Notes: generated from the sequence alone by a model not told the origin. Shown: positions 15,964 through 28,052, counted from the first letter of the stretch. The stretch: 64,000 nt of DNA from Candidatus Aminicenantota bacterium (GCA_011773465.1 WVXO01000007.1:1-64000), one strand, 5' to 3'. A program made the numbers and translations.

Positions 15964-16881
15964 TTATTTTTTTAAAGATTCGATCAACATTCCAAAGTAC
16001 TTATCCCCTACTTCTAAAAACTCGTCCTTTATTTTCATTACCCCGCAGAGGTAATTCTTAACTCTGCCTAGATAAATGTTGTGGTAGTAACGGTCTTTGA
16101 TGCGATAACCTGCAGAAATTTCCTCTACGCTCTGCTTGTTCCTTCTCTCCAGATATTGCTTTAGCATGTTCTGGGCATCGTCAGGGTTTTCTCCCTCAAT
16201 CAAAAAACAATCAAACTCAAGGTCCCCAAGTTTATAGTTAGCCAGGTATCCGTTGTGGAGAAAACTATAGCCCATAAAATTGCGCAAGATAAACTTCTCG
16301 CTGTTTCGTACGAGCCCTTGATCAGGGAAAAAGGCAAGGGCAGGCGGGAGATCTCCTCTATCTTTGACTCTTTTCACAACTTCCTTCGAAAAAATCTTCA
16401 GAAAGTTCGCAGATTCCTCCCCGCTGTCAAAACAGAGAAGCTTAACATAGTATTTCCCGACGATAAAATTCAGAGTTTCTTCTTCTAGATATCCCTGGTT
16501 GCCTAAAGAGATAGATTGACTATCAGGAAATCGCTCTGCACTGTAAATCCCGAATGAGTTTTTTTCATTTCCCATATCATAAATTTCTAAGATAAGAGAG
16601 GCATTGCTATCTCCTTTTTCATACTGCCCTACGGTCAATTCTCTAAAATCATAAGAAAGGTAAATCTCAGCAGCACCATTGATATACTCAAAAAGTGTTT
16701 CCGGAAAATAATCCTGGGGAGCTTCAGTAATCTTCCAGGTAACAACATCAGGCAAAAGGTGATGGAGCGAAGAAACACCCTCCTCTTCTAGTGGAGCTCC
16801 TCTCACGTTTAAAAAAGAAAATAACAGCATAAAAGCAAGGAAGAGTTTTGATAATTTTTTAGCTTTCGAAGTTCTCATCAT
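15964..16881 (-). CDS. Secreted DUF6599-family protein
   Basis: The 305-residue protein has an N-terminal signal segment (KKLSKLFLAFMLLFSFLNVRGA). The mature domain shows the DUF6599 hallmark region WKITEAPQDYFPETLFEYINGAAEIYLSYDFREL (about 49-82), then ILEIYDMGNEKNSFGIYSAERFP and VGKYYVKLLCFDSGEE. The family is found in Acidobacteria, Aminicenantes and delta-proteobacterial anaerobes and has no known activity. It is a single gene. The family call comes from the YINGAAE motif and overall layout. Confidence 0.75.
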   Translation of the reverse strand: MMRTSKAKKLSKLFLAFMLLFSFLNVRGAPLEEEGVSSLHHLLPDVVTWKITEAPQDYFPETLFEYINGAAEIYLSYDFRELTVGQYEKGDSNASLILEIYDMGNEKNSFGIYSAERFPDSQSISLGNQGYLEEETLNFIVGKYYVKLLCFDSGEESANFLKIFSKEVVKRVKDRGDLPPALAFFPDQGLVRNSEKFILRNFMGYSFLHNGYLANYKLGDLEFDCFLIEGENPDDAQNMLKQYLERRNKQSVEEISAGYRIKDRYYHNIYLGRVKNYLCGVMKIKDEFLEVGDKYFGMLIESLKK

Positions 16882-17117: not shown

Positions 17118-18011
17118 ATGGCATCAAAAGTCGTTCTTATCAGAGGAAAGGGAGTACTGACTGGAGGGGGAGATATAGATCAAAAGAAGCTCCTGAGTAT
17201 GTATAACCGGGGAATTCAAATCTTGATGGATAACCAAAATCCAAAGGATAGCCTTCGTCTAATCTTCAAAAACTCAGACAGGCTGGGGATAAAAATCAAC
17301 ACCATTGCCGGAAGAAAGCTATCTTCCCGGCCTGAAGTTTCCTATTCCTTAGCCAGTTTGCTTCAAGATGGCGGAATCCAGCCGAAAAACATAATCATCT
17401 GGGACCGAACCAACAGGGAATTGAGGGAAGCAGGTTACCGTCTGAACCTCAACCGCGGAGGCATCAAGGTTATTGGGACAGATACAAAAGGATTTGGCTA
17501 TGACTCTCAGCTCACCTCATATCTCAATATCGGGAGTCTTTTCTCCTCGATTCAATCGAATAAGATCACAGCTTCCATAAGCCTTGCCATCTTAAAAGAC
17601 CACGGCATGGCTGGAGTCACGGCAGGAATGAAAAATTATTTCGGGGCTGTCCATAATCCCAATAAATACCATGATTTTAACTGCAATCCCTTTGTAGCTG
17701 AGCTTTTTGAGACAAAATTTATAAAGCAAAAGCACAAACTCAGCATCCTGGACAGCCTGATCGTTCAATATCATCGTGGACCTTCTTACCATGCCCGGTG
17801 GGCCGAAAAATACGAGGCTCTTATTTTCAGCCTAGACCCTGTGGCAGCAGACTACGTAGGCTGGCAGGTCATTGAAAAGCTCAGAGCCAAGAAGGGACTT
17901 GCCTCTTTAAAGGAAGAAAAAAGAGCCCCTGTTTATCTTAAAACTGCTGAAAAAATGGGATTAGGAAAGGCGAGTCCGGAAGAGATAAAGATTATAGAAG
18001 AGGACGTATAA
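17118..18011 (+). CDS. DUF362 domain protein
   Basis: About 297 residues. I prefer ATG 17118 (MASKVVLIRGKGV, the usual DUF362 opening) over an in-frame TTG at 17067, though the Shine-Dalgarno GAGGAG lies about 15 bases upstream. Motifs: IKINTIAGRKLSSRPEV, IIWDRTNRELREAGY, NKITASISLAILKDHGMAGVTAGMKNYFG and SLDPVAADYVGWQVIEKLR. DUF362 proteins are often encoded beside redox or radical enzymes; some carry Fe-S clusters, but this one has no CxxCxxC. It lies 137 bases before the AmmeMemoRadiSam gene on the same strand and probably belongs with it. Confidence 0.8.
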   Translation: MASKVVLIRGKGVLTGGGDIDQKKLLSMYNRGIQILMDNQNPKDSLRLIFKNSDRLGIKINTIAGRKLSSRPEVSYSLASLLQDGGIQPKNIIIWDRTNRELREAGYRLNLNRGGIKVIGTDTKGFGYDSQLTSYLNIGSLFSSIQSNKITASISLAILKDHGMAGVTAGMKNYFGAVHNPNKYHDFNCNPFVAELFETKFIKQKHKLSILDSLIVQYHRGPSYHARWAEKYEALIFSLDPVAADYVGWQVIEKLRAKKGLASLKEEKRAPVYLKTAEKMGLGKASPEEIKIIEEDV

Positions 18012-18148
18012 AAAAAGGTGAAAATTTGTAATTTAAAATTGGTGAAATTAAAATAATTTATGTCAAAGCTAATGAACATAGAAATGAAAAGTTATACCAA
18101 TCAATCTTACTGCCTGAATCCGGATAGCTGCTTATTGGATTTACTAGA

Positions 18149-19291
18149 ATGAAAAGAAGACAATTCTTCAAAACAGCTGGAGGAGCCACTTTTCTGGCAA
18201 GCGCGGGTTTGATGAATCAAACCTCTACATTTCCGGCATTCCTTATGGATCTCTATGCCCTTGGAGAGGAGGCAAACCTTTCAAAAGTTGAAGCGCGTTA
18301 TTATAAGAAACACCCTGACAGGGAAATAGAGTGTACTCTTTGCCCTCGGTTCTGTAAATTGGGGGATAAGGAAAGAGGCTACTGTGGAGTTAGAGAAAAT
18401 ATCGGGGGTACCTACTACACCTTAGTTTACGGCAAGGCTTGCTCTATCGCACTTGATCCTATCGAAAAAAAACCTCTTTTTCACTATCTGCCAAAAAGCA
18501 GCGCTCTGTCCATCGCCACTGCAGGCTGCAATGTAAACTGCAAATTCTGCCAGAATTGGGAGATATCCCAGGTTAGACCGGAACAGATCCAGAACTATGA
18601 TTTTCCTCCCGGGGCAGTGGTGAAGACTGCAAAGAAGTACCGCTGTGCAGTAATCGCCTATACCTACACAGAGCCTGTCGTCTTCTATGAATACATGTAC
18701 GACACGTCTTTAGAAGCCCGAAAAAAAGGGGTCAGGACCGCTGTCATCACTGGAGGGCACATCAATCCCGAACCTATGGAAGACCTAACAAAAGTTGTGG
18801 ATGCGATAAAGATTGATCTTAAAGCTTTCTCCCAGGACTTTTACACAAAATATGTGAGAGGAGAGCTCCAGCCAGTCCTTGATGCTATAAAAATCGTTCA
18901 TAAAAGCTCTGCCTGGCTTGAACTGGTCTATCTTGTCATCCCTAACCTAAACGATAGCTCGGATGAAATCCGCAAGATGTGCCAATGGATTGTGAAAGAA
19001 ATCGGACCCGATGTGCCAGTCCATTTTTCGAAGTTTGTTCCTATGTACCTTGTGAAAAACCTTCCTCCAACTCCTGTATCCACCTTAGAAAAAGTTCATA
19101 AAATTGCTCTCGAAGAGGGGATTCGTTATGTTTACATCGGAAACGTCCCCGGTCATTCAGCAGAAAGCACGTATTGTCCCAATTGTAAAAAAATTGTTAT
19201 TGAGCGGAGAGGCTATAGCATAGGTAAAATTGCTCTCAAAGGAGGAAAGTGCAAATATTGTGATAATCCCATTCCAGGGATCTGGATTTGA
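18149..19291 (+). CDS. amrS: AmmeMemoRadiSam-system radical SAM protein with Tat-like signal
   Basis: The 380-residue protein begins MKRRQFFKTAGGATFLASAGL, a twin-arginine signal. The core has ECTLCPRFCKLGDKERGYCGVRENIGG (residues 53-79), the radical SAM cluster motif CNVNCKFC (about 126-133), YTYTEPVVFYEYMYDT, VDAIKIDLKAF and IPNLNDSSDEI. The C-terminal zinc-knuckle YCPNCKKIVIERRGY...GGKCKYCDNPIPG completes the family pattern. The system's usual partners AMMECR1 and MEMO are not in the window. Neighbours are DUF362 and a membrane spermidine-synthase-like protein, overlapped by 4 bases. The in vivo reaction is unknown. Confidence 0.9.
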   Translation: MKRRQFFKTAGGATFLASAGLMNQTSTFPAFLMDLYALGEEANLSKVEARYYKKHPDREIECTLCPRFCKLGDKERGYCGVRENIGGTYYTLVYGKACSIALDPIEKKPLFHYLPKSSALSIATAGCNVNCKFCQNWEISQVRPEQIQNYDFPPGAVVKTAKKYRCAVIAYTYTEPVVFYEYMYDTSLEARKKGVRTAVITGGHINPEPMEDLTKVVDAIKIDLKAFSQDFYTKYVRGELQPVLDAIKIVHKSSAWLELVYLVIPNLNDSSDEIRKMCQWIVKEIGPDVPVHFSKFVPMYLVKNLPPTPVSTLEKVHKIALEEGIRYVYIGNVPGHSAESTYCPNCKKIVIERRGYSIGKIALKGGKCKYCDNPIPGIWI

Positions 19292-21423
19292 TCACTTTTC
19301 TCCCGCCTTTTCTTCTGGGTTTCCTTGCTCTTTCCTTCCAAATTTTTTTGTTGAGGGAATTCTCCGTTCATTTCTACGGAAACGAAATCACTTTTGGTTT
19401 TATCCTTGCTTCCTGGCTATTGTGGGGAGGGCTAGGAAGCATTTATGCCTCCAAATTAAAATTTCATCCCCTAAGATTTCCTCAAGCCTATTATGCTGTT
19501 ATACTCTTTCTCCCCCTCTGTCTCGTAGTCCTCAGGTTTTCCCGCTTCTTTCTGAGAGTGCTTCCTGGGGAGATAACGGGAATTATCCCGATGTTGTTCT
19601 CTTCTCTTGTACTTGCTTTTTTTATAAGCTTCCCCCTGGGAATTCTTTTTGTCTTCAACGCCCATTTCCAGAAGGGTGATCTTTATCGCGTTTACTTTTT
19701 AGAGTCTTTGGGGTCTTCCGCAGCAGGATTGATAGTCTATCTTTTTCTCATCCCGGTTTTCTCTAACTGGCAGGGAGCAGCGATTGTCGGAGGATCTGCT
19801 TCTCTCTTGATTTTCTTTTCCTTCGGCAAAAAAAAGCAAATTATTTTGCCCCTTTCTATCCTCATTTTCCTGGCGGCCTTCATCGCCTTTGACTTCCCCA
19901 GCCAGAAAATCTACTGGAAGCCCTTTTCTCTTATAAAAAGCAAAGATACACCGTACGGCAAACTACAGATTCTCAAAACCGAGGAGCAGATATCCCTTTA
20001 TAACAACAGCCTTCATGATTATTCCTCCCCTAATCTGGCTGCTTCTGAGGAATCTGTCCATTTTGCTCTTCTCCAGAATCCTAGGGCAAGAAATGTCCTG
20101 TTGGTGGGAGGAGGAGCAGGTGGAGGATTGAGCCAGATTCTTAAATATTCTCAAGTCGAGGTTGACTACGTCGAACTCGACCCTGAAATTATTCGCCTCT
20201 CCCTCCAATTTCTGCCCGAAAAAGAAAAGAGTGCCTTGAAAAATGAAAGAATCCATACATTTTATCAAGATGGAAGAGCTTTCCTCAAAGAAACTCGGAA
20301 AAAATACGATATGATAATCCTCAGCCTGCCTGAACCGGCCACAGCCCAAATCAATCGGTTTTATACCAAAGAATTCTTCCTTGAAGCGAGAGAAAAACTG
20401 ACTGAGAAAGGTGTGTTTTCCTTTCGCGTTCCCTCTGCAGAAAATTATATCAGTCTTGAGCTCCAAGACTTCCTCTCCTCTCTTTATTTCACCATCAAAG
20501 AGGTGTTCCCTTTCGTAGAAGTAGTACCTGGGGATACGAACATATTCCTAGGCTCGCCTCAGCCCCTCTCTATAGGATTCGAGGAACTCAGCCAGAAAAT
20601 CGAGGATTTAAACCTCAAGAATTCCTATGTAAGTCCCCCGCTCCTCTTTTCTCGTCTTAGTTCGCTCAGGATAGAATTTATAAAAGAGAAAGTATCTTCG
20701 GGCAAAAAAACAATAAACCAGGACTTCTCTCCCATAAGCTATTTCTATAATTCTGTGCTGTGGAGTACTCAGTTCAAAGGATTAGAAAGGAAAATATTTT
20801 CTTTCTTCTCCAAGGTTCCTTTCTTCTGGCTATTGGATCTTCCTCTAATTCTTTTTATATCTCTTCTCATCATTCTCTGGTGGAGACGAAAGAAATCACC
20901 TTTTTTCCTTGTTCCTCTGGCTGTCATGGGCTTCACCACTATAGTCGTTGAGATCATTGTTATCATCTCCTTCCAAACTCTGTATGGATATGTTTATCGC
21001 AGGATCGCGCTGCTTCTCACCTGCTTTATGATAGGCCTTTTCTTAGGCTCTTATCGAGGGAAGAAAAGAAAAAAAATATATTTCGCTCTGCTACCTTTCA
21101 TCCAGTTTGGCATACTACTCCTCGTCCTCTTTCTCCATCTTGCTCTGAAGATACACCCTCCTGAACTCTTCTTTTTTATTTATCTTCTTCTCCTCGGCTT
21201 TTTGGGGGGCGATTTGTTTGTCGTATCCAACAATCTCTTTTTAAGAGAGAAAAAGAACTACGGTCTGGGCTATGGCCTGGATTTGCTCGGTTCCTTCCTT
21301 GGAGCACTTGCCGTTTCTACTTTCCTTATTCCTCTGGTCGGGCTACCCCTTCTTCTCAGGTATCTCTTTCTCCTTAATTCATTCTGCATTCTTTTTCTCT
21401 TCGGAGGACTGAAAAGATCCTAA
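19288..21423 (+). CDS. Membrane-fused spermidine synthase-like protein
   Basis: The 711-residue protein starts at a TTG overlapping the stop of the radical SAM gene. Residues 1-210 hold about seven membrane segments. Residues about 225-440 form a spermidine-synthase-like Rossmann domain: NVLLVGGGAGGGLSQILKYSQVEVDYVELDPEII, then IHTFYQDGRAFLKETRKKYDMIILSLPEPATAQINRFYTKEFF. Residues about 515-711 contain further membrane segments. The AdoMet/dcSAM loop is present. In known SpeE the conserved Asp after the 'DG.' strand is catalytic; here it reads LSLPEPATAQ rather than DxxDP, so aminopropyl transfer is doubtful. It is translationally coupled to the radical SAM gene. Confidence 0.82.
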   Translation: MITFLPPFLLGFLALSFQIFLLREFSVHFYGNEITFGFILASWLLWGGLGSIYASKLKFHPLRFPQAYYAVILFLPLCLVVLRFSRFFLRVLPGEITGIIPMLFSSLVLAFFISFPLGILFVFNAHFQKGDLYRVYFLESLGSSAAGLIVYLFLIPVFSNWQGAAIVGGSASLLIFFSFGKKKQIILPLSILIFLAAFIAFDFPSQKIYWKPFSLIKSKDTPYGKLQILKTEEQISLYNNSLHDYSSPNLAASEESVHFALLQNPRARNVLLVGGGAGGGLSQILKYSQVEVDYVELDPEIIRLSLQFLPEKEKSALKNERIHTFYQDGRAFLKETRKKYDMIILSLPEPATAQINRFYTKEFFLEAREKLTEKGVFSFRVPSAENYISLELQDFLSSLYFTIKEVFPFVEVVPGDTNIFLGSPQPLSIGFEELSQKIEDLNLKNSYVSPPLLFSRLSSLRIEFIKEKVSSGKKTINQDFSPISYFYNSVLWSTQFKGLERKIFSFFSKVPFFWLLDLPLILFISLLIILWWRRKKSPFFLVPLAVMGFTTIVVEIIVIISFQTLYGYVYRRIALLLTCFMIGLFLGSYRGKKRKKIYFALLPFIQFGILLLVLFLHLALKIHPPELFFFIYLLLLGFLGGDLFVVSNNLFLREKKNYGLGYGLDLLGSFLGALAVSTFLIPLVGLPLLLRYLFLLNSFCILFLFGGLKRS

Positions 21424-21831: not shown

Positions 21832-22239
21832 ATGAGAATCAACATCTCCAAAAGAAAAATCAAAGATCCCTTTGTTGCCAAGGTAGAAGAAATAAGCGGC
21901 CAGAATCTTCTTGCCTGTTATCAATGCGGCAAGTGTTCCGCAGGCTGTCCAGCTGTCTCTGAAATGGATATCCTTCCCAATCAAATAATCCGCTATGCTC
22001 AACTTGGCTTCAAGGATGAGCTTTTGCAGTCGAAATCCATCTGGATATGCGCTTCCTGCTTTACCTGCAACGCCCGCTGTCCTAAAGGAATAAACATTGC
22101 TGAAGTCATAGAAGCCATAAGGGAAATATTGCTGCGTAAGAGAGAAGACCACCTCAAGATTAAAAAACTTTCAGATGCAGAAAAGGGAGATGTTCCTCCT
22201 ATTGCAATCATAAGCAGTTTGAGGAAATTTACATCATAA
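21832..22239 (+). CDS. hdrC: Heterodisulfide reductase subunit C (HdrC-like)
   Basis: The 135-residue electron-transfer subunit has two [4Fe-4S] motifs: CYQCGKCSAGCP (Cys 31-41) and CASCFTCNARCP (about 70-80). The intervening helix (LPNQIIRYAQLGFKDELLQSKSIW) is the standard HdrC fold. HdrC passes electrons between HdrA and HdrB. It is the first gene of the thirteen-gene cluster, with hdrB 53 bases downstream. In bacteria without coenzymes M and B the partner disulfide is unknown. Confidence 0.9.
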   Translation: MRINISKRKIKDPFVAKVEEISGQNLLACYQCGKCSAGCPAVSEMDILPNQIIRYAQLGFKDELLQSKSIWICASCFTCNARCPKGINIAEVIEAIREILLRKREDHLKIKKLSDAEKGDVPPIAIISSLRKFTS

Positions 22240-22292
22240 ATTTTTAACAATGGTTTATACTTTTTATAATCAAAATAGCATAAGGATTCATA

Positions 22293-23171
22293 ATGAAAAT
22301 AAGTTATTACCCTGGTTGCACTCTGAAAAACAATGCGAAAAATTTTGAAGATTCAACCTTATGTTCTTTAAAGCGCCTCGAAGTAGAAGCTGAAGAACTT
22401 GATCGATGGAACTGCTGCGGGACTGTCTTCTCGCTGGCCACTGATGACTTGATTCATCACGTGGCTCCTATCCGAAACCTCATCCGAGTCAAGGAAACCA
22501 ACACAAACAAAGTCATGACTCTCTGTGCCATGTGTTTCAATACCTTAAAAAGAGCAAATGAAAGAGTAAAATCCGACCCAGAGAGCCTTGATAAGATAAA
22601 TAAATTTATGTATCGCGAGGAAGTCGAATACGAAGGAGACGTTAAGATCCTTCACCTCTTGGAGCTGCTGAGAGATGAGATAAAATTCGAAAATATCGCT
22701 AAAAAAGTAGTAAAGCCTTTGAAAAATCTAAGGATAGCCAACTACTATGGCTGTCTCCTAGTCCGTCCTAAAGAGATTGGACTTGACGATATTGAAAATC
22801 CGACTGTCTTAGAAAATCTCATAACTACGCTAGGTGCAGACGCCATAGATTTCCCTTATAAGACTGAATGCTGCGCTTCTTACCAAACTGTCGATAAACC
22901 CGAAAACGTAGCTGATAGAACATACCACATCCTTACCTCGGCTCAATCTCAAGGCGCTGAGCTTGTATCTGTAAGCTGTCCGCTCTGTGCTTTTAATCTA
23001 GACCACCGTCAGAAAGAAACTGTCAAAAAATATCCAGAGTTCAAGAATATCCCGGTCCTTTATTTCACCCAGATCATGGCTCTTGCTTTGGGTTGTCCTG
23101 AGAAGGATTTAAGGTTTGATCTCCATTATATTAATCCCAAGCCAGTATTGAGAGAGAAAGGATTACTCTGA
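22293..23171 (+). CDS. hdrB: Heterodisulfide reductase subunit B (HdrB-like)
   Basis: The 292-residue protein carries two complete CCG domains. The first is YYPGC...WNCCGTVF...TLCAMC (residues about 5-80). The second is NYYGC...TECCASY...SCPLC (about 149-237). In methanogen HdrB these bind two non-cubane [4Fe-4S] clusters that split the heterodisulfide; all the required cysteines are visible here. It is therefore expected to be an active thiol/disulfide or electron-delivery site rather than a degenerate subunit. It is followed 7 bases later by the ferredoxin-like korD. Confidence 0.92.
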
Positions 23172-23178
23172 GGATCAA

Positions 23179-23454
23179 ATGGTTTATTTTGGCGATTTAA
23201 AAGCAAAAAAGGGCAAAATCCATATTGATAAGGATAGGTGCAAAGGATGTCAATTCTGTGCAGAATACTGCCCCAAAGATGTGCTAGAGATGTCTGAAGA
23301 ATTCAATGTAAAGGGCTATCATCCCCCTTATGTCAAGAATGAGGATGATTGCCTTTACTGCCAACTCTGCGAGACAATTTGTCCTGAATTTGCCATATTT
23401 GTCACTCTTAAAAAAGAGGAGGAAGAAGGTGAAAAAGGTGAAAGCAGACCCTAA
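23179..23454 (+). CDS. korD: Ferredoxin-type delta subunit of 2-oxoacid:ferredoxin oxidoreductase
   Basis: The 91-residue 2x[4Fe-4S] protein has [12 protein letters not shown] (residues 15-26) and [12 protein letters not shown] (about 57-68), spaced as in KorD/PorD. The C terminus is a charged tail ([14 protein letters not shown]) whose DNA contains the Shine-Dalgarno for korA; the two genes overlap by 26 bases. It should transfer electrons from the KorAB thiamine site to free ferredoxin or, given the context, to the Hdr complex. Confidence 0.88.
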
Positions 23455-24595
23455 AGGAGTCTTAACCGGAGCTCATTATTTAGACGGAGACCATGCTCTT
23501 GCCGAGGGAGCTCTGGCGGCTGGATGCCGATTTTTTGCTGGCTATCCCATAACTCCCTCCACAGAAACAGCTGAAAGATTTGCCGAAAGAATTCCCAAGG
23601 TAGGAGGAGTCTTCATCCAGATGGAAGACGAGCTTGCCTCTATTGCAGCCTTGATAGGAGCTGCCTGGGGAGGGAAGAAAGTTATGACTGTCACTTCTGG
23701 CCCTGGTTTTTCGTTGATGATGGAAAATATAGGCCTGGCCTGCATGCTGGAAACCCCCCTGGTGATCGCCAATGTCCAAAGAGGAGGACCCTCAACAGGG
23801 CTCCCTACTTTAACCGGTCAGCAGGACATGATGCAGGTTAAATGGGGCTCCCACGGTGATTACGAGATAATCGCCCTTTCTCCTGATTCTCCTCAGGAGT
23901 GTTTCGACCTCTGCATCGAGGCTTTCAATCTATCCGAAATTTACAGAGTTCCCAGCTTTGTCATGACAGACGAATGTGTAGGACATATGCACGAGAAAGT
24001 AGTGATCCCTCCTGCTGAAGAAATCGAACTTGTCGAGCGGAAATGGTACAAGGGTCCAAAGGATAAATACCTGCCTTTCAAGCCTGATGAAGACATGATT
24101 CCCTTTATGGTCAAAGTTGGGGACGGATACCACTTCCACGTCACTGGATTAACTCATGACGAACGCGGCTACCCTGTTATCAACGCTGAATGCCAAAATG
24201 TCTGTGTTCCTCATCTGGTGGATAAAATTAACATGAATGCAGATAAAATCATTAAACTCGAGGAAGATGAAACAGATAACGCTGAAATCATAGTTATTTC
24301 TTACGGAATAACCTCAAGGGTTACTACAAGAGCAGTTCGTAAGGCGAGAAAAGCCGGTATAAAAGTGGGCACGATAAGGCTTATTACAGTCTGGCCCTTT
24401 CCCGAAAAGAGAATAAAAGAGCTAGCCAAGAAAATTAAGGCGTTCGTTGTCCCCGAGATAAATTACGGCCAGGTGGTTTATGAAGTTGAACGATGCGCTT
24501 TCGGTCAAGCTCCGGCCATTCGTGTTCCTCACTGCGGCGGCTGGGTCCATGATCCAGAAGATATTTTTAAAGCCATCAAGGAGGCTTCAAAATGA
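23429..24595 (+). CDS. korA: 2-oxoacid (probably 2-oxoglutarate):ferredoxin oxidoreductase alpha subunit
   Basis: I place the start at GTG 23429, 7 bases after GAGGAGG, giving 388 residues; an in-frame ATG at 23330 lies deep in korD and lacks family similarity. The product shows [97 protein letters not shown] and a transketolase C-like end. The [15 protein letters not shown] pattern is typical of KorA rather than PorA. The enzyme interconverts 2-oxoglutarate + CoA with succinyl-CoA + CO2 using ferredoxin. It overlaps korB by 4 bases. Confidence 0.9.
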
Positions 24596-25464
24596 AGGAA
24601 GAAGATCGTCGCGAAGGAAAAAACCCGATCGAAAATTTACTGAGAATGGACAGGATTCCCCATATCTGGTGTCCGGGCTGTGGCATAGGTGTTGTAGTTA
24701 CTTCCTTCGCCGAAGCCCTGAGGAAAAGTGAAATTGACCTGGATAAAACTGCTATTATATCTGGAATCGGATGCACAGGAAGAGTTGCTGGTTATGTTAA
24801 ACTGGATTCTATTCACACAACCCATGGCCGAGCTGTGCCTGTTGCCACTGGATTAAAACTGGCTAATCCCGAATTAAAAGTCGTTGTTTTCAGCGGAGAT
24901 GGAGATATTGCAGGGATTGGGGGTAATCATTTCATCCATGCGGCAAGAAGAAATATGGATCTCGTCATTATCTGTGTTAACAATTTTAATTATGCCATGA
25001 CAGGAGGCCAAGTAGCAGCCACAACCCCTATCTCGGCTAATGCCTCCACTGCTCCTTTCGGCAATTTTGAGTATCCTTTTAACTTACCCTATCTTGCTGA
25101 AGCCAGCGGGGCAACTTATGTTGCTCGCTGGACTGCTCTTCACTTAAGGAGAGTGACTAAATCTGTGCAGGAAGCTCTCGGCAGGAGAGGCTTTTCTTTC
25201 ATCGAAGTCATCACTCCTTGCGTAACTCTCTATGCTCGCAGAAACCGACTAGGCGATGGATTGAACCTGCTGAAATATTATTACGAAAAATCTGAAATTC
25301 AGCACGGTGCTGATACGAAGACACTTGATATAAGCTACCAGGGAAAGCTCATAGTTGGCAAGTTCGTTGATAAAGATAAGCCAACTTTTCTCGATTGCAT
25401 GAATGAGCATCTCGGTAAAGTTTTAGGCGATAAATACGAGCCTTACGGAGGAAACCATGACTGA
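24592..25464 (+). CDS. korB: 2-oxoacid:ferredoxin oxidoreductase beta subunit (TPP-binding)
   Basis: The 290-residue protein has CPGCGIGVVVTSFAEAL (cluster/TPP region, residues 25-41) and GIGCTGR. The thiamine-diphosphate motif reads GDGDIAGIGGNHFIHAARRNMDLVIICVNNFNYAMTGGQ (about 102-140). ATTPISANASTAPFGNFEYPFN is the usual KorB follow-on. It is the catalytic partner of korA, overlapped by ATGA at each end with korA and korC. Confidence 0.92.
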   Translation: MKEEDRREGKNPIENLLRMDRIPHIWCPGCGIGVVVTSFAEALRKSEIDLDKTAIISGIGCTGRVAGYVKLDSIHTTHGRAVPVATGLKLANPELKVVVFSGDGDIAGIGGNHFIHAARRNMDLVIICVNNFNYAMTGGQVAATTPISANASTAPFGNFEYPFNLPYLAEASGATYVARWTALHLRRVTKSVQEALGRRGFSFIEVITPCVTLYARRNRLGDGLNLLKYYYEKSEIQHGADTKTLDISYQGKLIVGKFVDKDKPTFLDCMNEHLGKVLGDKYEPYGGNHD

Positions 25465-26038
25465 GATCAGGTTTTCTGGTTTTGGTGGTCAAGGAATCAT
25501 TCGCTGCGGCTTAATTGCTGGAAAGGCCCTTTCTCTTTTTGACAATAAGCAGGCGACAATGACCCAGAGCTTCGGTCCTGAAGCCAGAGGAAGCGCCTGC
25601 AGTTCTCAACTCGTTGTCTCAGATGATCGAGTCCTATATCCTTATATTTCAGCCCCTGAAATTCTTGTCTCCATGTCCCAGGAAGCATATGACAAGTACG
25701 AACCAGAATTACGGGAAGATGGACTTCTCCTCATAGACAAGGATTTAGTCAAGCCAAAACCTCCTCGAGGAAAAATTAAGAGCTATTCTATTCCTTCTAC
25801 AAGGTTTGCTGAAGAATTAGGGAATCGTATTATCGCCAACCTAGTTATGCTGGGATTTTTCACAGCAATAACCCGTGTCGTCTCTCCTGAGGCCATGAAA
25901 AAAGCACTCCCCGGCTTAGTCCCGGAAAGATTTCTTGAGCTTAACAAGAAAGCTTTTGATAAAGGTTATGAATACGGAAAAAAAATCCTGGCTGAAGAGA
26001 AAAAACCTAAAACCTCAAAACAAAAGGTAAAAAAATGA
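25457..26038 (+). CDS. korC: 2-oxoacid:ferredoxin oxidoreductase gamma subunit
   Basis: The 193-residue protein has the gamma-family opening IRFSGFGGQGIIRCGLIAGKAL and TMTQSFGPEARGSACSSQLVVSD, with the conserved NLVMLGFFTA helix near 135. It closes the korDABC set. Its last codons and stop (AAAGGTAAAAAAATGA) form the first copy of an 18-bp direct repeat whose second copy starts hdrA. The original korC/hdrA junction was therefore probably an ATGA overlap. Confidence 0.92.
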   Translation: MTEIRFSGFGGQGIIRCGLIAGKALSLFDNKQATMTQSFGPEARGSACSSQLVVSDDRVLYPYISAPEILVSMSQEAYDKYEPELREDGLLLIDKDLVKPKPPRGKIKSYSIPSTRFAEELGNRIIANLVMLGFFTAITRVVSPEAMKKALPGLVPERFLELNKKAFDKGYEYGKKILAEEKKPKTSKQKVKK

Positions 26039-26111
26039 AAAAAATGGGGCCTAGAAAAAATGGGGCCTGGCCCCAATTTAATGGCCCCAATTTAAAGGTA
26101 AAAAAATGAAA
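26023..26111. repeat. REP-like palindrome insert flanked by 18-bp direct repeats inside the operon
   Basis: AAAGGTAAAAAAATGAAA occurs at 26023-26040 and again at 26094-26111. Between them lies TGGGGCC...TGGGGCC-T-GGCCCCA...GGCCCCA, a double palindrome of the same family as 21512. The second direct repeat supplies the Shine-Dalgarno and ATG of hdrA. This looks like an insertion that duplicated its target, or a slippage/repair event, and it leaves both flanking genes intact. Confidence 0.75.
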
Positions 26112-28052
26112 CGAACAGGTATTTTTGTTTGCCACTGCGGCATAAATATAGCTGGAACGGTGGACGTCAAAAAGGTCGCCAAGGAGCTTTCCAAGCACAA
26201 AGGAGTCGTCCACGCAGAAGATTACGTCTACGTCTGCTCTGATCCAGGTCAGAATATTATTATCAACGCCATAAAGGAAAAGAAGCTGGATAGCGTGGTT
26301 GTCGCCTGTTGTTCCCCAACGCTCCATGAGACAACCTTCAGGAATACATCCAAGTCAGCCGGACTCAATGCGTTCCAGTGTGAAATCGCTAATATCCGCG
26401 AACAGTGCAGCTGGGTCCATAAGGATATGGAGAAAGCCACCGACAAAGCTATAAGAATTACCAAGAGCACTGTGCAAAGAGTGCGAAGGAATGAATCTCT
26501 GGAGCCGATAAGCGTCCCTGTCACCAGGAAAGCTATGGTTATTGGGGGAGGAATAGCAGGCATTCAATCCGCATTGGACTTGGCCAACACTGGCTTCGAA
26601 GTCATTCTGGTAGAAAGAGCTCCTTCCATCGGGGGCCATATGATTCAGCTCTCTGAAACCTTTCCTACTCTCGACTGTTCCCAGTGTATCCTGACTCCGA
26701 AAATGGTGGAGGTTTCCAAACACCCCAAGATAAAACTCATGACCTACAGCGAAGTTCAAGATATCTCCGGGTATGTGGGAAATTTTAAAGTTAAAATTCT
26801 CAAAAAGCCCACCTATGTTGACCCGGACAAATGTACTCTCTGTGATGAATGCACCAAGGTCTGTCCAGTGGTCGTGCCTAACGAATTTGATCTCGGTTTA
26901 ACCGGACGGCGAGCGATTTATATTCCTTTTCCTCAGGCTATTCCAGCTACCTTTACTCTGGACATAAAATCCTGTCCAGGCCTCCTGCCGATTGCCTGCG
27001 GCAAGTGTGCAGATGTTTGCGAGCCAGATGCAATCGACTATGATATGAAACCTGAAATCGTGGAGGAAGAGGTGGGGGCTATCATCGTCGCCACTGGATA
27101 CGATCTGTACGAAAAAGAATTGTTGACTGAATACGGGTATGGAAAATACCCGGATGTCCTCGATGGACTTCAATTTGAAAGATTGCTCTCTGCCTCTGGA
27201 CCAACAATGGGAAAAATTCTCAGACCGTCAGACCACAAAGTACCCAAGGAGGTTGTCTTTATCCAATGCGCTGGTTCCCGTGATCCTGAACTTCACTGTG
27301 CTTACTGCTCAAAAATCTGCTGCATGTACACGGCCAAACATGCCATGCTTTACAAGCATCACGTTCATGATGGCCAGGCCTATGTTTTTTATATCGATAT
27401 CAGGTCAGGGGGAAAAGACTACGAGGAATTCGTCCAGAGAGCCGTAGAAAATGATGGAGTCCTCTACCTCAGAGGAAAGGTTTCAAAAATATTTGAGGAT
27501 AACGGTAAAATAAAAGTCTGGGGAGTGGATACCCTGACTGGAAAAGATATCGAGATCGATGCCGATATGGTGGTTCTGGCTACAGCCACGCGACCCTCGA
27601 AGGGAGCAGATGAACTTGCCAAAAAACTCAAAATCGCCATGGACAAGGATGGCTTTCTTGCCGAAGCGCATCCAAAGCTCAGACCCGTGGAGAGTGTTAC
27701 ATCTGGAATGTTCCTTGCAGGAGCAGCTCAGGCACCTAAAGACATTCCTGAAGCTGTGGCGCAAGCAAGCGGGGCTGCTGCCAAAGCTATCTCCATCTTA
27801 TCCCAGGACAGACTTTACCATGCTCCCACAGTAGCCAAGGTCAACATCAACCTCTGCACTGGCTGCGGAATGTGTGTTCAGGTCTGTCCTTATGATGCTC
27901 TCTCCCTCAAAGACGGCAAAGCCGAGGTGAATGAAGTTCTCTGCGAAGGATGCGGGACTTGTTCAGCCACCTGCTTGAGGGCAGCTATCCAGGTTAAAAA
28001 TATGACTCCTTTGCAAGTAAATGAAATGATAAAGGCATCACTCGGAGGCTAA
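26106..28052 (+). CDS. hdrA: Heterodisulfide reductase subunit A (HdrA-like), flavin-bifurcating type
   Basis: The 648-residue protein follows the HdrA layout. The N-terminal domain has CHCG (11-14), VCSDPGQ, ACCSPTLHE and NIREQCSWVH. The FAD Rossmann motif is VIGGGIAGIQSALDLA (about 143-158). An inserted ferredoxin domain has CTLCDECTKVCP and CGKCADVCEPDAI. The cluster motif HCAYCSKICC follows. Two C-terminal [4Fe-4S] motifs are CTGCGMCVQVCP and CEGCGTCSATC. HdrA carries the bifurcating FAD in methanogens and anaerobic bacteria. Here it should take electrons from FlxA/MvhD and split them between ferredoxin and HdrBC. It is followed by mvhD/flxD after 3 bases. Confidence 0.93.
   Translation: MKRTGIFVCHCGINIAGTVDVKKVAKELSKHKGVVHAEDYVYVCSDPGQNIIINAIKEKKLDSVVVACCSPTLHETTFRNTSKSAGLNAFQCEIANIREQCSWVHKDMEKATDKAIRITKSTVQRVRRNESLEPISVPVTRKAMVIGGGIAGIQSALDLANTGFEVILVERAPSIGGHMIQLSETFPTLDCSQCILTPKMVEVSKHPKIKLMTYSEVQDISGYVGNFKVKILKKPTYVDPDKCTLCDECTKVCPVVVPNEFDLGLTGRRAIYIPFPQAIPATFTLDIKSCPGLLPIACGKCADVCEPDAIDYDMKPEIVEEEVGAIIVATGYDLYEKELLTEYGYGKYPDVLDGLQFERLLSASGPTMGKILRPSDHKVPKEVVFIQCAGSRDPELHCAYCSKICCMYTAKHAMLYKHHVHDGQAYVFYIDIRSGGKDYEEFVQRAVENDGVLYLRGKVSKIFEDNGKIKVWGVDTLTGKDIEIDADMVVLATATRPSKGADELAKKLKIAMDKDGFLAEAHPKLRPVESVTSGMFLAGAAQAPKDIPEAVAQASGAAAKAISILSQDRLYHAPTVAKVNINLCTGCGMCVQVCPYDALSLKDGKAEVNEVLCEGCGTCSATCLRAAIQVKNMTPLQVNEMIKASLGG

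Follow-up and report, generated by a model that had tools for sequence, protein, structure and literature searches.

The DUF362-rSAM-SPD gene cluster described here is very probably part of an extracytoplasmic AmmeMemoRadiSam pathway, whose MEMO and AMMECR1 domains are encoded elsewhere in the same genome behind a secretion signal of their own. The window, i.e., the whole 64-kb stretch of DNA analyzed, corresponds to contig C3 of an Aminicenantes genome assembled from a metagenome (2.59 Mb, 81% complete). Profile matches agreed with the coordinates and identities that the initial annotation had given to three plus-strand genes: a DUF362 protein (17118 to 18011; PF04015, E = 9e-18); a radical SAM enzyme of the AmmeMemoRadiSam family, predicted to be exported and here called rSAM (18149 to 19291, 380 amino acids [aa]; TIGR04337, 388 bits); and SPD, a membrane protein built around a spermidine-synthase-fold domain (19288 to 21423, 711 aa; PF01564, E = 1e-26). 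Their divergent neighbor on the minus strand encodes a DUF6599 protein with a Sec-like signal (15964 to 16881; PF20244, E = 8e-47). The gene order, whose conservation the initial annotation had named as a point to check, is indeed kept: rSAM and SPD are neighbors on the same strand in all 46 loci of the order (Aminicenantales) where the contig permits the comparison, and nearly all order loci have DUF362 upstream of rSAM and DUF6599 divergent.

SPD starts with TTG and overlaps the rSAM stop codon by 4 bp (TTGA, 19288 to 19291). The suggested coupling by overlap depends on the lineage: some relatives have gaps of 40 to 160 nucleotides instead. The SPD start codons are unusual and under translational coupling to rSAM: in many genomes SPD opens with TTG or apparently CTG, rarely ATG, inside a (T/C)TGA that also ends rSAM. 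Apparent rSAM-SPD fusions of 930 to 1148 aa were rejected, their extra N-terminal portions being out-of-frame readings of GC-rich DNA, as was a −1 frameshift fusing rSAM to SPD at the (T/C)TGA overlap, where no slippery sequence was seen; several relatives are cleanly gapped. After the cluster, the window carries genes named by eye as HdrC/HdrB-like, ferredoxin, 2-oxoacid oxidoreductase (Kor-like), and HdrA-like (21832 to 28052); these are retained in the window's family and absent from this position in family f6 of the order.

The rSAM protein begins with the leader MKRRQFFKTAGG, and residues 1 to 44 (MKRRQFFKTAGGATFLASAGL; 18149 to 18280, plus strand) make up a Tat signal peptide region. Its MxRRxF motif is found at the rSAM start in 48 of 48 distinct order genomes in which the 5′ end is intact. 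Among the first 44 columns of an alignment of 29 orthologues, only M1, R3, R4, and F6 are invariant, and length and sequence otherwise vary there; the RR pair, whose conservation had been put forward as a check on export, stays fixed in a leader that elsewhere drifts. Judged against the general Tat pattern, (S/T/K)RRxF(L/F/I)K followed by a hydrophobic stretch and shared by orthologues, the window rSAM reads as a Tat substrate on this 48-of-48 conservation, and the window's genome has a TatC gene. Orthologues from the order are 62 to 92% identical to the window rSAM. Nearly every sampled genome of the order also encodes a second TIGR04337 protein, ∼40 to 47% identical, whose frame opens just before the core (e.g., MIKEAMLY) and carries no leader; in a maximum-likelihood tree these cytosolic paralogues form one clade (support, 100/100), with the exported type on the other side. 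The window rSAM is, in all likelihood, exported as a predicted Tat substrate, a degree of confidence that we attach to the exported system as a whole.

Outside the order, rSAMs of Omnitrophota, Elusimicrobia, Auribacterota, and other lineages carry either a Sec-like signal or an anchor at the N terminus in place of Tat (for example MKKSLLLLILLLSVLFPAIGA in locus L243). Across lineages export itself is apparently conserved, judging from these leaders, and the route is not. Two observations count against an exported enzyme: a few partner-linked rSAMs (e.g., L247) have no clear signal, and the Sec-type leaders would require Fe-S assembly outside the cytoplasm. A further rSAM of the family, on a long branch in genome G016 (L093, 7403 to 8350), has a KR-type Tat-like leader (TKREFLKTCG), and no partner genes were recognized near it.

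As for the catalytic core, the window rSAM scores 388 bits against a TIGR04337 cutoff of 220 bits and thus belongs to the AmmeMemoRadiSam family; it also matches PF04055 and has the CxxxCxxC motif and partial TIM barrel of the radical SAM superfamily. Three sets of cysteines were distinguished on the plus strand, with conservation counted over 88 sequences (71 exported and 17 cytosolic): the radical SAM motif C127-x3-C131-x2-C134 (18527 to 18550; 100% conserved); an N-terminal four-Cys motif, C62-x2-C65-x3-C69-x9-C79, which is a candidate auxiliary Fe-S site (18332 to 18385; 100%); and a C-terminal four-Cys site of zinc-ribbon or rubredoxin type, C343/C346/C368/C371 (19175 to 19261; 99 to 100%). 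Within the 71 exported sequences, the first two sets, together with H112 and H292, are 100% conserved and the third set 99%. One clade (support, 100/100) has, in addition, a c-heme-type CxxCH motif between the Tat signal and the rSAM core; c-heme attachment takes place only outside the cytoplasmic membrane. No CxxCH is present in the window rSAM, and none was found in L227 and L230, relatives of the CxxCH clade; both points count against the exported pathway proposed below.

The AMMECR1 and MEMO partners that the cluster had been thought to do without are both encoded in the same genome, two of each and unlinked to the window cluster. One of each is a stand-alone gene without a signal; the remaining pair is a single 476-aa MEMO-AMMECR1 fusion on contig C33, which starts with the Sec signal peptide MRKISLIIFLSLCLFVSCAWA|QG. 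The signal-less stand-alone genes, taken with the signal-bearing fusion, point to two sets in this genome, one cytosolic (rSAM on C28, MEMO on C72, and AMMECR1 on C49) and one exported (Tat-rSAM on C3 and Sec-signal MEMO-AMMECR1 on C33); we infer that the exported set is a duplicate of the cytosolic one. The fusion is present in nearly all order genomes, with a Sec-type signal on all ∼45 complete 5′ ends among order loci. When fusions from inside and outside the order are pooled, 102 of 111 score as exported, and a contig end truncates most of the exceptions. Many of the proteins are lipoprotein-like, a Cys following their hydrophobic stretch. Residues H69, H101, H150, D204, H207, and C245 and the LRGCIG motif are 97 to 100% conserved in 95 exported fusions. 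Of these, H69/H101/C245 fit H49/H81/C244, the iron ligands of human MEMO1 (PMC11081632), with C245 paired to C244 by position and pattern, as the pairwise alignment ended before C245.

The fusion is unlinked from rSAM in the window's order and linked to it in L130, L180-L182, L187-L191, L221, L225, L300, and others; on this distribution, the fusion in the window's order appears merely to have become unlinked from rSAM-SPD. Of 17 order loci, 14 have a gene for a family 9 heptosyltransferase adjoining the fusion (L134, 7773 to 9824, and 13 more); the other neighbors encode a LolB-like lipoprotein, a HAD phosphatase resembling GmhB, and a small protein of zinc-ribbon type. The heptosyltransferase, GmhB, and LolB neighbors give a weak hint of a lipopolysaccharide or envelope context for the substrate, and could reflect chance linkage.

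An AlphaFold2 model of SPD (pLDDT, 92.5) consists of seven transmembrane (TM) helices, a soluble domain, and seven further TM helices. The soluble domain, a Rossmann domain (residues 215 to 497; 19930 to 20778, plus strand), matches SpeE/spermidine synthase structures in Foldseek searches (TMt, ∼0.75) and is predicted to be periplasmic by positive-inside bias: Lys plus Arg density is 0.27 per residue in the loops of one side and 0.08 in those of the other, and the bias runs the same way in every sequence compared (30 of 30 from the order and 25 of 25 diverse homologues, 55 of 55 altogether), which places both termini inside and the Rossmann domain outside. Because the loops were assigned from the model and within the same family, this is a consistency test, though a strong one. 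The catalytic Asp motif had been described as altered, and alignments bear this out: SLPEPAT (residues 346 to 352; 20323 to 20343, plus strand), with S346 and E349, replaces DxxDPxGP. Homologues have S/N and E/D/G in place of the Asp pair of aminopropyl transfer, whereas the nucleotide-binding residues are largely retained; conserved residues include GGG..G, E296/D298, and D328. SPD scores 130 bits against an aminopropyltransferase cutoff of 472 and so falls outside the polyamine aminopropyltransferases; an ordinary spermidine synthase was ruled out by the SLPEPAT motif and the low model scores.

SPD homologues vary in their attachments. In L186 the gene is fused to a NapH-like Fer4_5 polyferredoxin. 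The SPD of genome G056 (L130, 5128 to 7638) has additional N-terminal TM helices that contain several His residues and look, on inspection, like cytochrome b, without a Pfam match, and in genome G094 (L219, 6676 to 9900) an SPD homologue lies beside DUF6599, with no rSAM recognized nearby.

The DUF362 model (pLDDT, 88.9) has a LarA-clan fold. Six PDB structures match it at E < 0.001, nearly all of them Ni-pincer malate/lactate racemases, and the LarA likeness is clear in Foldseek (E = 7.5e-6; probability, 1.0; TMq, 0.51); DUF362 has already been placed in the same Pfam clan as LarA (PMC11770544). Invariant His and Lys residues are present. LarC, which is needed for the nickel-pincer cofactor, is encoded in the window's genome, where it may serve another protein. 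No export signal was found on the window DUF362, a point against the exported reading; the protein would have to remain in the cytoplasm or accompany rSAM. The DUF362 proteins of L187, L191, and L205 have a Tat leader of their own, and in a wider set 15 of 28 DUF362 proteins beside an rSAM match RR/KR-x-hydrophobic, a simple motif test in which two of the 15 are doubtful. DUF6599, kept beside the cluster across the order and divergent from DUF362-rSAM, may be a fifth component of the exported system; weak DUF6599 matches were also seen near the cluster in L269, L280, L287, L296, and L300.

Beyond the order, the components occur together. The genes for a Sec-signal MEMO-AMMECR1, SPD, and a Tat-rSAM are consecutive in G056, with a 4-bp overlap between SPD and rSAM, and at least 17 loci in the phylum sample have an SPD homologue (25 to 36% identity) beside a Tat-rSAM and a signal-bearing MEMO-AMMECR1; L187, L191, and L205 add DUF362. 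The collection was scanned with the rSAM alignment, the diverse SPD alignment being too varied for scanning. Among species genomes, the same arrangement was found in Syntrophales, KSB1, Calditrichota, Latescibacterota, Zixibacteria, Chloroflexi, Acidobacteria, Altiarchaeota, and others, while a Scalindua genome has rSAM with SPD alone. A single stretch in Sulfotelmatobacter (L300, 4374 to 11209) encodes DUF6599, Tat-DUF362, Tat-rSAM, MEMO-AMMECR1, and SPD. The operon is also present in a metagenome-assembled genome labeled Thermoanaerobaculum aquaticum (L233). By gene order and predicted signals, the exported set is one system, which many bacterial phyla, along with some archaea, carry as a single operon.

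How might such a system work? rSAM would fold and acquire its Fe-S clusters in the cytoplasm and then cross the membrane, already folded, by Tat, which exports folded proteins (PMC10924467). Once outside, rSAM would cleave SAM reductively, with SAM brought or presented to it by SPD and electrons drawn from the respiratory chain; candidate donors are the c-type heme beside the core in one clade and the NapH-like polyferredoxin fused to SPD in another. AMMECR1 and MEMO, the latter binding iron, would take part in the radical chemistry, whose target would be some component of the envelope, conceivably a glycan or a lipid. As a whole, an exported pathway of this kind is the explanation we consider likely. 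A role for SPD itself as the supplier of SAM outside the cytoplasm is a tentative proposal, one that we would sooner doubt than accept. The same caution applies to the broadest version, in which many anaerobic bacteria and some archaea would have a complete extracytoplasmic radical SAM pathway, with a 14-TM SPD delivering SAM and a c-heme or polyferredoxin delivering low-potential electrons for MEMO/AMMECR1-assisted envelope modification. We know of no periplasmic SAM pool or SAM exporter, which counts against an exported pathway. The envelope-associated modification pathway suggested in the initial annotation survives in its location, which the invariant RR, TatC, the periplasmic topology predicted for SPD, and the CxxCH of one clade all favor, but not in its missing partners.

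The exported rSAM might not be a radical SAM catalyst outside the cytoplasm at all but an Fe-S electron carrier or a metal-handling or sensing protein, working with the iron-binding MEMO in envelope iron homeostasis, with SPD as sensor or transporter. No SAM source or strong reductant is known in the periplasm, c-heme or polyferredoxin modules adjoin the Fe-S protein in some lineages, and MEMO binds iron (PMC11081632), all of which would suit such a role. However, conservation of the radical SAM motif, of H112 and H292, and of both other Cys sets is as complete as in the cytosolic paralogue, whereas residues of this kind usually drift once catalysis is lost, and SPD retains a spermidine-synthase-type binding fold; we therefore regard a noncatalytic rSAM as improbable. 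Still less probable, and in our judgment very unlikely, is an RR leader that serves only as a membrane tether or relic, leaving rSAM to act on the cytoplasmic face beside DUF362. That arrangement would fit the signal-less DUF362 of the window and the general experience that every known radical SAM enzyme is cytoplasmic or organellar (we know of none working elsewhere), but it leaves unexplained an RR pair that is invariant amid leader drift, a MEMO-AMMECR1 partner with cleavable Sec or lipoprotein signals, an SPD Rossmann domain predicted to lie outside, a clade with CxxCH, and the Tat-tagged DUF362 of other phyla.

A different question concerns the SPD step alone and leaves the exported system untouched: instead of supplying SAM, SPD could be an active transferase of this pathway, moving an aminopropyl-like or other SAM-derived group onto a molecule of the envelope. 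Its spermidine-synthase fold and conserved GGG..G, E296/D298, and D328 are what such an enzyme would need, but the catalytic Asp pair is replaced by S/N and E/D/G, and the protein lies far under all aminopropyltransferase models (130 versus 472 bits); we hold this to be a serious possibility that nonetheless falls short of an even chance. As to mere coincidence, an ordinary AmmeMemoRadiSam gene next to unrelated genes, the unlinked MEMO-AMMECR1 of the window's order is the one point in its favor. It is already refuted, and its probability practically nil, because many phyla have operons containing these partners and rSAM adjoins SPD in 46 of 46 loci.

The exported pathway that we favor matters because AMMECR1 and MEMO, both medically named, are families found almost universally yet lacking a known biochemical function. 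To our knowledge, the AmmeMemoRadiSam system is itself uncharacterized. An exported duplicate narrows its function, in that tRNA and other strictly cytosolic substrates become unlikely for the exported branch, and its additional partners give a hint of how SAM and electrons are supplied; if confirmed, it would raise the questions of SAM export, of periplasmic low-potential electron transfer, and of the chemistry of the entire family. AMMECR1 has been listed as archaeal dark matter (PMC6393860) and was the top anaerobe-predicting Pfam family in one study (PMC13386939). Our literature search, outside which most subscription papers fell, turned up neither an exported AmmeMemoRadiSam set nor a periplasmic radical SAM enzyme.

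Each component has known relatives. The structures nearest to the rSAM core are those of pyruvate formate-lyase activating enzyme and its relatives, from which rSAM differs by its extra N- and C-terminal Cys4 sites and its export signal; with these activases in mind we considered activation of a glycyl radical enzyme, and saw no gene for such an enzyme in the clusters. Like the membrane-linked polyamine aminopropyltransferases (NF002956/PRK03612) and the fused MFS/SpdSyn proteins (NF037959), SPD places a spermidine synthase domain after a TM bundle, but it adds a second 7-TM half, has its Asp motif replaced, and scores below every cutoff. DUF362 shares Pfam clan CL0471 with the LarA/DUF2088 nickel-pincer racemases (PMC11770544), whose folds its model matches; the comparison is one of fold, not cofactor, and DUF362 is shorter, of low sequence identity, and Tat-exported in several lineages. 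The CxxxCP Fer4_5 domain of the L186 fusion recurs in membrane polyferredoxins of NapH/NosR type, whereas the Fer4_5-SPD fusion was seen in one lineage only and is absent from the window. Closest of all is AmmeMemoRadiSam itself (TIGR04337 with PF01875 Memo and PF01871 AMMECR1), with the same three families and with the cluster cysteines and MEMO metal residues kept; here, in contrast, all members are predicted to be exported, MEMO and AMMECR1 are fused, a cytosolic set coexists in the same genome, and a membrane SPD partner is added, often with DUF362 and DUF6599. The parts belong to known families; their combination with SPD as an exported assembly is, within the reach of our checks, a new variant.
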